Below, in pieces: positions 1 to 33,957 of a stretch of DNA of 33,957 nucleotides. The translations under genes and the position numbers were made by a program. Position 1 is the first letter of the stretch, and each line of letters begins with the position of its first letter. Source of the DNA: a virus; IMG/VR virus record IMGVR_UViG_3300037333_000151, positions 1 to 33,957 of that record. The stretch is one strand, 5' to 3'. The notes under the pieces were generated by a model, which saw nothing but the letters and a program-made list of their open reading frames with translations, had not been told where the DNA came from and made no database searches.

Positions 1-152
1 CGTTACCCTACAAAAAAAGAGGAAAAAGAGTTTAAAGAGCTTGAAGAAGAGGTAAAAGGGCTTTTTAAAAAGCTCTCTAAATACGAAAAAGAGTTGCAAA
101 GAATCGAGAAAAAAATCGAATACGCGGAAAAAAGAGAAGATTACGAAACGGC
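1..152. repeat. Terminal overlap, left copy (equals 33806-33957)
   Basis: These 152 bases recur at the right end of the window with a single difference (A at 26, T at 33831). The overlap shows that the sequence is circular or circularly permuted with a unique length of about 33,805 bp. The last 126 bases of the overlap are identical. An exact overlap of that size is typical of a circular contig closed by a k-mer assembler, though a biological terminal redundancy cannot be excluded from sequence alone. Confidence 0.95.
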
Positions 153-7236: not shown

Positions 7237-7467
7237 ATGTCTAATACGATTTTGCTTAAAAGATCTGACGAAGCGGGGAAAATCCCTACTTCAAACGATC
7301 TGAATGTGGGCGAATTGGCTATAAACACAACAGATGGTGTTCTTTATACAAAACTTGCTAATGGCAGTGTTGTAGCTATTGCGAAAAGTGTTTTAGAAGA
7401 CGAAGAAACAGGTAAACATTATTATCTTAAAGTAATAAATGGACAATTAATTTTAGAGGAGGTTTAA
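7237..7467 (+). CDS. Short tail fibre module, paralogue of the preceding gene's N-terminus
   Basis: The product has 76 aa. Its first 45 residues repeat the module of the previous gene (MSNTILLKRSDE, LNVGELAINTTDGVLYTK). The C-terminus (YYLKVINGQLILEEV) repeats the EEV end of the protein at 5726-6193. The protein therefore looks like a shuffled pair of modules with no shaft. The last codons again serve as Shine-Dalgarno (GAGGAGG) for the next gene. Confidence 0.72.
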   Translation: MSNTILLKRSDEAGKIPTSNDLNVGELAINTTDGVLYTKLANGSVVAIAKSVLEDEETGKHYYLKVINGQLILEEV

Positions 7468-7468
7468 T

Positions 7469-8347
7469 ATGGCAAGTGGAGATAAGATTTTAGTTGGAAG
7501 TAATTTTAATTTTAAAAACAAAATTATTAACGGTGACTTTTCAATATGGCAGAGAGGGACAAGTTTCAGCACATCTACTGCTAATGATCTTCCTTATACT
7601 GCCGATAGGTGGAAAATAGGCTATCACCCAGAAGATGCAGAAGTTACAGTAGAACAAGCAGAATTTGGATTAAAATTTACAAATAATCAGACTTCTGATA
7701 ATAGTTCAATAAAACAATTAATTGAACCTAACATTATGCCAGAATTATTATCTAACAACGGAATATATTATTATACTTTATCATATCTTATGAAAAATGA
7801 GAATTTAGAAACAGATTATTCAACTCTAAGTGCTATTGCATTTAGAGTTGAATATACAGATGGAACAAGCTATCAATTTCCTGCTACTGTTGGAACAAAT
7901 GGGGATAAACAAACTTGGTTAATAACAGTAGATACGAATAATATTGATTATACTAAAACAATATATGCTTTTTCAGTAGAATTATATCTCAAACCTTCAA
8001 CAACATACATTTATGAAGTTCAATTAGAAAAAGGGAAATACGCTACAGAGTTTGAAGTCGTTCCTTATGATATTCAGTTAATGAGGTGTTTGAGATATTA
8101 TGAGCAGGGGCGATTTGTAAACCAACGATTCTGTGGATCTGCGAGTAATTATGGGAATGATGATGTTAAATTTTATGTTAGAAAAAGAACTATTCCTTCT
8201 ATGAAGATAGCTCAAAATAATTTTGCCAATTGTTCATATTTAGGTGTTCAAGTTATGAGTGAAGATTCTTTTCATGTTAATGTAACAACGAGTGAGGCGA
8301 TAGATATTTTAATAGATTTTAATTTCGAAGCAGATGCAGAACTATAA
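7469..8347 (+). CDS. Tail fibre / receptor-binding protein
   Basis: The product has 292 aa. It shows the standard opening of a fibre tip domain: KIINGDFSIWQRGTSF, then YTADRWKIG, and later YEVQLEKGKYATEFEVVPY followed by LMRCLRYYEQG. This domain is a beta-sandwich of the carbohydrate-binding type, common at the distal end of fibres. The last 80 residues after the RYY segment are probably the variable receptor-contact region. It is the largest fibre gene here and the best candidate for host recognition. Confidence 0.85.
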   Translation: MASGDKILVGSNFNFKNKIINGDFSIWQRGTSFSTSTANDLPYTADRWKIGYHPEDAEVTVEQAEFGLKFTNNQTSDNSSIKQLIEPNIMPELLSNNGIYYYTLSYLMKNENLETDYSTLSAIAFRVEYTDGTSYQFPATVGTNGDKQTWLITVDTNNIDYTKTIYAFSVELYLKPSTTYIYEVQLEKGKYATEFEVVPYDIQLMRCLRYYEQGRFVNQRFCGSASNYGNDDVKFYVRKRTIPSMKIAQNNFANCSYLGVQVMSEDSFHVNVTTSEAIDILIDFNFEADAEL

Positions 8348-11757: not shown

Positions 11758-12287
11758 CCCTTCTTTCTTAATTTCTTATACCTGCTCTGCACACTTCCGA
11801 TAGTCCTGTTTAACTTTAGGGCTATCTCTTTTTTTGTTAGTTTATTCCAGTTCTGCAATAAAAATTCGTCCTCTTCTTTAGAATAGGGCGTTTTATAAGT
11901 GTTGCTTTGCATACTAATCTCTCTTGCGTTATCGTTTTCTTCTTTAAAGCGTTGTAACTTCTGTAATTTTCTTTTTTCGTTGTAGTAAATTTCAGGGTGT
12001 TCTTTTCTATATTGTCTTTTATATTCTCTGTATTTTTCTATATGCCTGTTATATGTTTGCCTAACATTGTAATTATTTTTACATCTTTTAGAGCAAAAAT
12101 ATTTTTTGCTATCTGTTGTTACAAATGTTTCTCCGCAGTTTTTACATTCTCTAACATAATATTGCTTTTTCTCTCTTGCGTATTTTCTTTTTTTATACGC
12201 TAAATCCCTGCATTTTTTAGAACAATAAACCTGATCTTTACGTTTAGGCTTAAACGCTTGTAAGCAGTGCGGGCAGATTTTAAGCAT
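11754..12287 (-). CDS. Double zinc-ribbon protein with C-terminal Myb/SANT-like helix-turn-helix
   Basis: The product has 177 aa. Two CxxC...CSxxC clusters are visible: CPHC with VYCSKKC (about 5-26) and CKNC with YFCSKRC (about 48-69). A basic linker follows, then a C-terminal domain of about 45 residues (YSKEEDEFLLQNWNKLTKKE, IALKLNRTIGSVQSRYKKL) that reads as a Myb/SANT-like DNA-binding fold, as in phage and transposon regulators. Its start overlaps the integrase end by 8 nt, so it is the last gene of the leftward operon. It probably binds DNA; a role in integration control or in a homing-type nuclease assembly is unproven. Confidence 0.72.
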   Translation of the reverse strand: MLKICPHCLQAFKPKRKDQVYCSKKCRDLAYKKRKYAREKKQYYVRECKNCGETFVTTDSKKYFCSKRCKNNYNVRQTYNRHIEKYREYKRQYRKEHPEIYYNEKRKLQKLQRFKEENDNAREISMQSNTYKTPYSKEEDEFLLQNWNKLTKKEIALKLNRTIGSVQSRYKKLRKKG

Positions 12288-13443
12288 TTAGGAACCCCTC
12301 CCACCATTCGAGCAGTTTTCGTCTTTCTTCTAAAAAGTCACTACGCATATAAGCCCTTGTAACTTTATTTCCGATGGCATGTGCAAGCTGTGTTTCTATT
12401 ACTTCGCTGCTAAATCCGTGCTCTTTTTGCTTTTCGTAACAGATAGTACTAAAAGAAGTCCTAAATCCGTGCGGCTTATGATTTTTAATGCCTAATCGTT
12501 TTAGATACATTATAAAAACATTTTCACTTAAAGGTTTTTTAGGGTCTGCAGGAGAATAAAATACATACTTAGAGCGCTTAATTTTATGCGCTTCTAAAAG
12601 GATATTTTTTAGAGTTTCCGTTAAAGGCAGTCTAAATTCTTTTTTATTCTTCATTTCGCTCGCGGGAATAATTACTATATCTTTGTCTAAATCTACCCAG
12701 CTCCATTCCATTTTTCTTACATTTCCGCTTCTTAGCGCTGTTAAAATTAAAAATTTAAGTGCTAATTGTGTTATTTTATATACGCCTTCTACTTCAAAAA
12801 GCATTTTTACTAAATTTTTAAACTCTTCTTCGTTTGTGATTGCTTCTATATGCTTTTCTTCTCTTTTAGGCAGCAATTCGTTTATATCTATCGCTTCGCA
12901 TATGTTGTATTCTACATAATCTTTATGCATTGCAAAGCGAAATATTTGCTTTATAAGCAAAAAGACTTTTCTTCTTAATTCTACTTTATCTCCCGTTTTT
13001 GCTTTAGATAGCGTTTTCTTAACTATATTATCTAAAACTGCATTTATATCTGCTTTTGTTATTTCCCTTATATCTTTATCTCCTAAAATATCTAATATAT
13101 AGTTTTCTAATTTAGCGGTCTGATCTTTAAAGTGCTTAATGCTCCATTCCTGTTTCTTTATCCGCATAAACTCTTTTGCAACTTTTTTAAATGTTTTAAT
13201 TTCTGCTGCTTCGTTATTTTGCAGTCTGCCTTTAACCTTTATCGCTTCCTCTCTTGCTTTTTGCAAGGATATGTAAGGGTATTCGCCTAATGTAATTGTC
13301 TTTTCTTTTTTGTCTTGTCTGTATCTTATACGCCAAATTTTTTTACCTGTCGGCCGCACGTCTAAGTAAAGCCCGTTTATATCGAATAATTTATACGCTT
13401 TCTCTTTAGGTTTAGCCACTTTAATCTTCGTATTCGTAAGCAT
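12280..13443 (-). CDS. int: Tyrosine recombinase, P4-type integrase
   Basis: The product has 387 aa and catalyses site-specific recombination between attP and attB. The N-terminal DUF4102 arm-binding domain (residues 1-80, with GLYLDVRPTGKKIWRIRYR and TLGEYPYISLQKARE) marks the P4/tRNA-targeting subgroup. A core-binding region follows (about 85-180). Catalytic residues are Arg238 (TALRSGN), Lys265, His325 and Arg328 (PHGFRTSFST), His355 (LAHAIGN) and the nucleophile Tyr365 (TRAYMRSDF). All are present, so the enzyme should be active. The ATG has AAGGA 7 nt upstream. attP lies directly upstream (13444-13707) and an excisionase-like gene beyond it. Confidence 0.96.
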   Translation of the reverse strand: MLTNTKIKVAKPKEKAYKLFDINGLYLDVRPTGKKIWRIRYRQDKKEKTITLGEYPYISLQKAREEAIKVKGRLQNNEAAEIKTFKKVAKEFMRIKKQEWSIKHFKDQTAKLENYILDILGDKDIREITKADINAVLDNIVKKTLSKAKTGDKVELRRKVFLLIKQIFRFAMHKDYVEYNICEAIDINELLPKREEKHIEAITNEEEFKNLVKMLFEVEGVYKITQLALKFLILTALRSGNVRKMEWSWVDLDKDIVIIPASEMKNKKEFRLPLTETLKNILLEAHKIKRSKYVFYSPADPKKPLSENVFIMYLKRLGIKNHKPHGFRTSFSTICYEKQKEHGFSSEVIETQLAHAIGNKVTRAYMRSDFLEERRKLLEWWEGFLNA

Positions 13444-13707
13444 TTTTGCTTCCTTTAGGGGTAAAATTTTTTGTTACAAATTACGTTACCCAAAATCTTA
13501 CCCCGTTTTTTAAATTTTGTAAAGATTGTTCAGATTTGTTTAGATTTGTAGTATTGTAGAATTTAGCCTTATTTTAGGGGATTTTGTTTGTAGAAATTTT
13601 TGGAGATTTTTCTTTTTGGTGGAGGTGTCGGGAGTTTAACGAAAACGGATAAAAAGCGGGAATTTAGGGGATAATAAAAGATATATAAATTTTAATTTCC
13701 TAAATTT
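13444..13707. other. attP: attP region: arm-type repeats around a tRNA/tmRNA-like core
   Basis: No gene lies in these 264 bp. The motif TTTAGGGGNN occurs at 13454-13463, 13573-13582 and 13663-13672. The inverted form TTACCCC occurs at 13498-13504 and 13708-13714. A helically phased series AGATTGTT, AGATTTGTT, AGATTTGTA runs from 13523 to 13550. They lie on both sides of the core at 13617-13641, the arrangement expected for arm-type integrase and accessory-protein sites. GGGGTAAAATTTT (13458-13470) and the complement of 13492-13504 form a 12/13 inverted repeat. Confidence 0.75.
13617..13641 (-). other. attP core resembling the 3' end of a tRNA or tmRNA gene
   Basis: Read on the - strand, the segment is TTAAACTCCCGACACC followed by TCCACCA. 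It looks like a T-loop end, T-stem 3' strand (CCCGA), acceptor 3' strand (CACCTCC), discriminator A and CCA. The A73-CCA end with CTCC before it fits alanine-type acceptors, i.e. tRNA-Ala or ssrA. The CCA end points toward int, as in islands and phages that carry P4-type integrases. Confidence 0.62.
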
Positions 13708-13998
13708 TTACCCCGTTTTTGTAATTTCGCTTTCGTTTTTTAGATAATTTAAAACGTCTATCTTCCTATATTTTCTCTTTCCGTTTCTTATAATATATCC
13801 AATTTTGTCCTCTCTTGCAAGTTTATCTAAACTTTCAGGCGTGCAGCCTAAATATTTAGCAGCCTGTTCGCGTGGAATTATACTATACAAATCGAGAGGG
13901 TCATTTGTTTTTAATTTTTCTATCTCTTCTAAAAGCGGCGTTATAACTTCCAATACCGCTTCTTTTATTTCTTCTTTCGTAGGGATTTCGATAGGCAT
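13708..13998 (-). CDS. Excisionase-like helix-turn-helix protein
   Basis: The product has 96 aa. After a helical lead (residues 1-40), a MerR/HTH_17-type domain is visible: IPREQAAKYLGCTPESLDKL, then a wing (GYIIRNGKRKYRKIDVLNYL). The fold, size and position just before attP and int match recombination directionality factors, which bend attP DNA and favour excision. Its stop coincides with one of the inverted TTACCCC sites. A two-base gap separates it from the gene upstream. Confidence 0.72.
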   Translation of the reverse strand: MPIEIPTKEEIKEAVLEVITPLLEEIEKLKTNDPLDLYSIIPREQAAKYLGCTPESLDKLAREDKIGYIIRNGKRKYRKIDVLNYLKNESEITKTG

Positions 13999-14620: not shown

Positions 14621-15073
14621 TTAAAACGGTATTGCATCCTCGTCAATATCAACTTCCGGTATATTTGCTTGACTGTTGTTTGTCTGAGGGGGTGCATAAT
14701 CCGCACTTTGCCCGTAGTTTCGGGCTTGATTTGTTTCACCGTTGTTTGTTTTGCAATCCATAAACTGCACTTTCTCTGCTACCACAACGTGTTTGCTGCG
14801 CTTTTGTCCGTCGTTGCCGACCCATTGTTCAAACGCCAGCCGTCCCTCGACTAAAATCCTTTTGCCTTTATGTAGAAACTGATTTGCAATTTCCGCCGAA
14901 CGTCCGAATACCTTTACGTCAATAAACATAACTTCCTGCTCCTGCTGTCCGGAAACATCTTTGTAGGTCCTGTTCGTAGCTATTCCGAAGTTTGCAACAG
15001 CAGTCCCGGACGGAAGATATTTAAGCTCTACGTCACGGGTGAGGTTGCCGACTAAGATTACTTTGTTAAACAT
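14621..15073 (-). CDS. ssb: Single-stranded DNA-binding protein
   Basis: The product has 150 aa. The OB fold occupies about residues 1-105 (MFNKVILVGNLTRDVELKYL, FGIATNRTYKD, FIDVKVFGRSAEIA, KGKRILVEGRL). A Gln/Asn-rich linker leads to the acidic tip DIDEDAIPF, the docking site for partner proteins. The ATG at 15073 overlaps the TGA of the upstream gene and has AAGGA 6 nt upstream, so it is preferred over the GTG one codon earlier. Together with the ERF protein it would support annealing-type recombination. Confidence 0.95.
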   Translation of the reverse strand: MFNKVILVGNLTRDVELKYLPSGTAVANFGIATNRTYKDVSGQQEQEVMFIDVKVFGRSAEIANQFLHKGKRILVEGRLAFEQWVGNDGQKRSKHVVVAEKVQFMDCKTNNGETNQARNYGQSADYAPPQTNNSQANIPEVDIDEDAIPF

Positions 15074-15207
15074 CACAATTCCTTTACAATTTTTGCATCA
15101 GGCTCGCTTTTTAATAAATATCTGCGGGCACTATTTTTATTTGTAGAAGTAATTTGCACTTCGTATAATTTGCCCTCTTTTTCTATTACAAATTTAAAAA
15201 CTTTCAT
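15073..15207 (-). CDS. Small protein (44 aa), unknown
   Basis: The product begins MKVFKFVIEKEGKLYEVQIT and ends KIVKEL. The start has an excellent ribosome binding site (AAGGAG, 5 nt spacing), its 5' end overlaps the previous gene by 14 nt and its TGA overlaps the SSB ATG. This tight coupling on both sides supports a true gene. It looks like a small beta-beta-alpha domain; no family recognised. Confidence 0.72.
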   Translation of the reverse strand: MKVFKFVIEKEGKLYEVQITSTNKNSARRYLLKSEPDAKIVKEL

Positions 15208-33724: not shown

Positions 33725-33957
33725 ATGAAACTTACGCTTGACGTGCCTATTGAAGTAAAGATTGAAGAAAACGGAAAAGTAAAAGAAACGCTAAAAGTTA
33801 CCTTCCGTTACCCTACAAAAAAAGAGGAAATAGAGTTTAAAGAGCTTGAAGAAGAGGTAAAAGGGCTTTTTAAAAAGCTCTCTAAATACGAAAAAGAGTT
33901 GCAAAGAATCGAGAAAAAAATCGAATACGCGGAAAAAAGAGAAGATTACGAAACGGC
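33725..33957 (+). CDS. Tail assembly chaperone, 5' part (continues at base 1)
   Basis: The gene starts MKLTLDVPIEVKIEENGKVK at an ATG with AAGGA upstream (33715-33719). Codon 28 falls at 33806, which is base 1 of the window. Codon 36 is ATA (Ile) here and AAA (Lys) in the left copy, a polymorphism or an assembly error. The role and frameshift are described for the 3' part. Confidence 0.85.
   Translation, partial: MKLTLDVPIEVKIEENGKVKETLKVTFRYPTKKEEIEFKELEEEVKGLFKKLSKYEKELQRIEKKIEYAEKREDYET
33806..33957. repeat. Terminal overlap, right copy (equals 1-152)
   Basis: 151 of 152 bases match the window start; the difference is T33831 against A26. It joins the two halves of the chaperone gene into one frame. 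Confidence 0.95.

Follow-up and report, generated by a model that had tools for sequence, protein, structure and literature searches.

Integration at the 3' end of the tmRNA gene (ssrA) is a classic mode of action of tyrosine integrases. In the Islander collection, tmRNA is the most enriched target (PMC4383910), and islands and prophages in tRNA and tmRNA genes have a tyrosine integrase and an attP that carries the 3' part of the target gene and restores it (PMC4383910, citing Williams 2002 and 2003). CP4So, a cryptic gammaproteobacterial prophage in ssrA of Shewanella oneidensis, has a P4-like integrase next to ssrA and a 26-nt repeat at the ssrA 3' end, and its excision changes ssrA by one base (PMC5148205). 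Islands in ssrA are also known from Dehalococcoides (PMC3146451), and the temperate tailed Nitratiruptor phages NrS-1 to NrS-5, from vent Campylobacterota, have been reported to integrate into tDNA, with tRNA-Asn, tRNA-Arg and tRNA-Ser as targets (PMC9723563).

The DNA analyzed here (the window, 33,957 nt) is an IMG/VR virus record, in which positions 13617-13633 very probably represent the attP core of a temperate tailed Campylobacterota phage, likely from Nautiliaceae, integrating at the 3' end of tmRNA. The phage shows no difference in kind from the Islander set, from which it differs in its little-studied host group. It shares with CP4So the type of integrase and a repeat at the ssrA 3' end, but the repeat of CP4So is longer. 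Unlike the Dehalococcoides islands, which are not phages and use a serine recombinase, it encodes a P4-type tyrosine integrase, and its predicted target is tmRNA in contrast to the tRNA genes used by the NrS phages. It adds an ordinary and unsurprising member to the well-known class of elements with P4-type integrases at ssrA.

The record is classed as linear. Comparison of its ends revealed a terminal direct repeat with copies at 1-152 (+) and 33806-33957 (+, one mismatch), and the related contig L171 spans the join of the window ends. The gene order also fits a joined circle, with terminase, portal and capsid genes at 26-31 kb and the tape measure gene at 0.7-4.9 kb. Thus, the 152-bp end repeat, the contig across the join and the gene order identify a complete phage genome of approximately 33.8 kb with an unrecombined attP, and the record is circularly closed or permuted.

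Positions 13617-13641 read TGGTGGAGGTGTCGGGAGTTTAACG on the + strand and CGTTAAACTCCCGACACCTCCACCA on the - strand. The first-pass annotation regarded this 25-nt segment as an attP core of 22-26 nt that corresponds to the 3' terminus of either a tRNA-Ala or a tmRNA gene of the host. All of the elements that it described on the - strand, namely the T-stem 3' strand, the acceptor 3' strand, the A discriminator and CCA, are present at 13633-13617, where the - strand reads TCCCGACACCTCCACCA. Alignment with the candidate-host tmRNA (ending in ACTCGGGTTCGATTCCCGACACCTCCACCA) shows that 17 bases are kept (13617-13633, -), comprising T60 as the last T-loop base, CCCGA of the T-stem 3' strand, CACCTCC of the acceptor 3' strand, A73 and CCA. 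The T-loop differs at three places between the phage (TTAAACT) and the tmRNA (TTCGATT), so strict identity stops one base into the loop, near the position anticipated from the sequence. The remainder of the annotated segment, a diverged T-loop (13634-13641, -), lies outside this identity, and the proposed core length had to be reduced to about 17 bp. The exact 25-mer had no matches in viral contigs, and no related attP was found in named phages. Rfam RNAs, tRNA and tmRNA included, are absent from the window.

When the whole window was shuffled 200 times with dinucleotides preserved, the longest stretch anchored at the tmRNA 3' end was usually 6-8 bases and never exceeded 11, compared to 17 in the window. 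A coincidental match, which has nothing but its short length in its favor, is next to impossible in view of these values and of the position of the match beside the integrase gene, and a chance origin of the 17 bases is excluded.

For identification of the target gene, 36 distinct tRNA and tmRNA genes (ARAGORN, 31 loci) of G065, which we take to be Nitratiruptor sp. SB155-2, were compared with the window. The longest exact match in the attP region was 17 bases for tmRNA (TCCCGACACCTCCACCA), whereas the best tRNA gene matched 10 bases and both tRNA-Ala genes 8. A search of 150 genomes of the order for CTCCCGACACCTCCACCA (18 bases), allowing at most one mismatch, gave only tmRNA 3' ends and one displaced copy (G104). 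The 17-mer occurs 96 times in viral contigs, and 87 of these occurrences are preceded by tmRNA-type T-arm sequence, such as GGACTCGGGTTCGA. An origin of the core from a tRNA-Ala gene, with phage integration at that gene, would be compatible with the end CTCCACCA, which is common to tRNA-Ala, and with an integrase relative in G019 (51% identical) adjoining tRNA-Ala(GGC). It is nevertheless extremely improbable, since no tRNA end in the 150 genomes comes within one mismatch of the core and the attP contains no tRNA-Ala 3' end beyond 8 matching bases. This match length, 8 against 17, ruled out tRNA-Ala as the target, and from the initial pair of candidates only tmRNA was retained.

The integrase gene (12280-13443, -) encodes a P4-type tyrosine integrase of 387 aa (PHROG 1, integrase) with arm-binding (PF13356, 9e-21), core-binding (PF22022, 1.2e-14) and catalytic (PF00589, 2e-18) domains. 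This Arm-DNA-bind_3 / Phage_int_M / Phage_integrase architecture is the one that P4-type tyrosine integrases have, in line with the P4-type system suggested earlier. The integrase gene is the first gene beyond CCA, so the CCA end of the core points toward its start codon, located 173 bases from the core end, and the orientation proposed in the first-pass annotation is correct. Upstream of attP, a small HTH_17 protein (13708-13998, -; PF12728 at its cut-off, PHROG 668) is a candidate excisionase or regulator.

The motif GGGGTA is present in six copies in the window, three of them within 13458-13714 and flanking the core on both sides. Putative arm-type sites are located on the integrase side at 13458-13504 (GGGGTA at 13458 on the + strand and at 13504 on the - strand) and on the opposite side of the core at 13705-13720 (-, AAAAACGGGGTAAAAA). 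GGGGTA or GGGGTC is also found between the tmRNA and integrase genes in G001 and G139, as well as beside the phage DNA at the attR of G139, and these motifs may serve as integrase arm sites.

A scan of species genomes revealed one integrase relative (54-57% identical) in the Nautiliaceae MAG JAMORJ010000019.1 (G001:C19), which has the same orientation as a tmRNA gene and starts 217 bp downstream of it. Overall, integrase relatives with 51-57% identity start 217-218 bp downstream of tmRNA and are oriented as are the core and the integrase gene in the window. Adjacent tmRNA-integrase pairs were also found by coordinates in G026, G058, G071, G003, G123 and G099. Many large phages encode tmRNA, as illustrated by the viral contigs with the 17-mer, and the 17 bp might therefore be a leftover of a tmRNA gene once carried or captured by the phage, with no role in integration. 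This origin is very unlikely, because the phage has kept an exact copy of the 3' end alone, located in the intergenic region next to the integrase gene. The orientation of this copy is that of the tmRNA-integrase pairs in the relatives, its spacing is similar, and GGGGTA motifs flank it on both sides.

Integration at the tmRNA 3' end is in agreement with the duplicated tmRNA ends of these relatives. In G001, the tmRNA 3' end and its flank recur at the start of contig C59, representing a longer displaced fragment. In G139, an integrase gene (51%) follows tmRNA on contig C75, and contig C10 contains a displaced tmRNA end of 19 bases (ATTCCCCACACCTCCACCA) between phage genes (endolysin, tape measure, major capsid, scaffold) and DNA similar to the tmRNA downstream flank of G052. 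Both are draft genomes, and each junction pair is split over separate contigs. Displaced tmRNA fragments of 16 bases in G060 and 14 bases in G066 are located 42.6 kb and 10.2 kb from their tmRNA genes, respectively. With displaced fragments of 14-19 bases or longer marking the far end of the element in several genomes, the 17-base core has the usual size. The attL and attR junctions with a duplicated core, expected from the first-pass annotation, are therefore present in relatives (G139, G001, G060 and G066), whereas neither such junctions nor a lysogen of the window phage were found in the genomes examined.

Other integrase relatives of similar distance use different targets, including tRNA-Met (G049) and the tRNA-Ala(GGC) of G019, and tmRNA use is scattered over the integrase tree with no clustering. 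Since close relatives use tRNA-Met or tRNA-Ala, kinship alone does not predict tmRNA, and integrase phylogeny was rejected as a target predictor; the predicted target is assigned from the core sequence. Among related integrases in Campylobacterota, the target thus changes between tmRNA and a variety of tRNA genes.

The sequence downstream of tmRNA in G104 has a 47-bp match (85%) to the phage flank. The 16-kb element located there (L165 1126-17280; G104:C1:265127-281280) is bounded by a tmRNA gene on one side and by a displaced tmRNA end of 25 bases on the other. The integrase at the far end of this element is a different, unrelated one, and the element is therefore not an integrated relative of the window phage. 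It carries an apparent S-adenosylmethionine synthetase gene (L165 8206-9702), which, judging by its sequence, seems complete.

The exact 17-mer ends tmRNA genes in both candidate-host families, with 5 of the 21 genomes in the family of the Nautiliaceae MAG G001 and 12 of the 22 in that of Nitratiruptor. Nucleotide-level matches to other phage genes were found mainly in the family of G001 (for example, in G208, G049, G034 and G089), many members of which have an ssb gene about 70% identical to that of the phage. In G208, a tmRNA site that seems to be empty contains the exact core, and small contigs of this genome carry relatives of several phage genes (up to 78% identity). These matches, together with the core and gene relatives of G208, make Nautiliaceae the probable host family, followed by Nitratiruptor or its kin as the second likeliest host. 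The expectation that the target gene would identify the host was thus borne out to the level of Campylobacterota and, probably, Nautiliaceae. Capsid homology was discarded as a guide to the host, as it gave only distant matches (29-43%) in scattered genomes. For CRISPR spacers, searches of 399 genomes by DNA sequence matching produced no clear match close to identity, only homologous gene fragments and short matches at noise level.

According to the proposed mechanism, the integrase would bind the arm sites flanking the core. It would recombine the core with the identical 17-bp stretch that ends the tmRNA (ssrA) gene of the host and would serve as attB, with strand exchange presumably inside the 17 bp. 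At attL, the phage copy would complete the tmRNA gene just upstream of the integrase gene, and the displaced 17-bp host fragment would land at attR. The expected junctions are tmRNA-TCCCGACACCTCCACCA-AAAAGAAAAATCTCC for attL and CGTTAAAC-TCCCGACACCTCCACCA-host flank for attR. Sequence alone thus suffices to propose, for an uncultured phage, the likely host family and the precise site of integration. The phage adds a tmRNA-targeting P4-type integrase from deep-sea vent Campylobacterota, for which few phages are known.

The attP region (13444-13707) separates the integrase gene from a leftward gene group including the HTH_17 gene and ssb (14621-15076, -), and integration would place the integrase gene downstream of tmRNA, apart from this group. 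It is conceivable, though rather doubtful, that the phage is the first recognized tmRNA-integrating temperate phage of Nautiliaceae with an integration-dependent switch of integrase expression, in which integration would sever the integrase gene from phage promoters.

Further sites with tmRNA-like ends were observed. In L241, near 7465-7478 (G043:C14 near 17464), the core-like end CCTCACCTCCACCA lies ahead of an integrase relative; ARAGORN detected no tRNA or tmRNA there, and this end does not match that of the G043 tmRNA. In the viral contigs L117 and L130, an apparent tmRNA 5' start lies no more than about 10 bases beyond a tmRNA 3' end, suggesting that these viruses may have permuted (two-piece) or tandem tmRNA genes.
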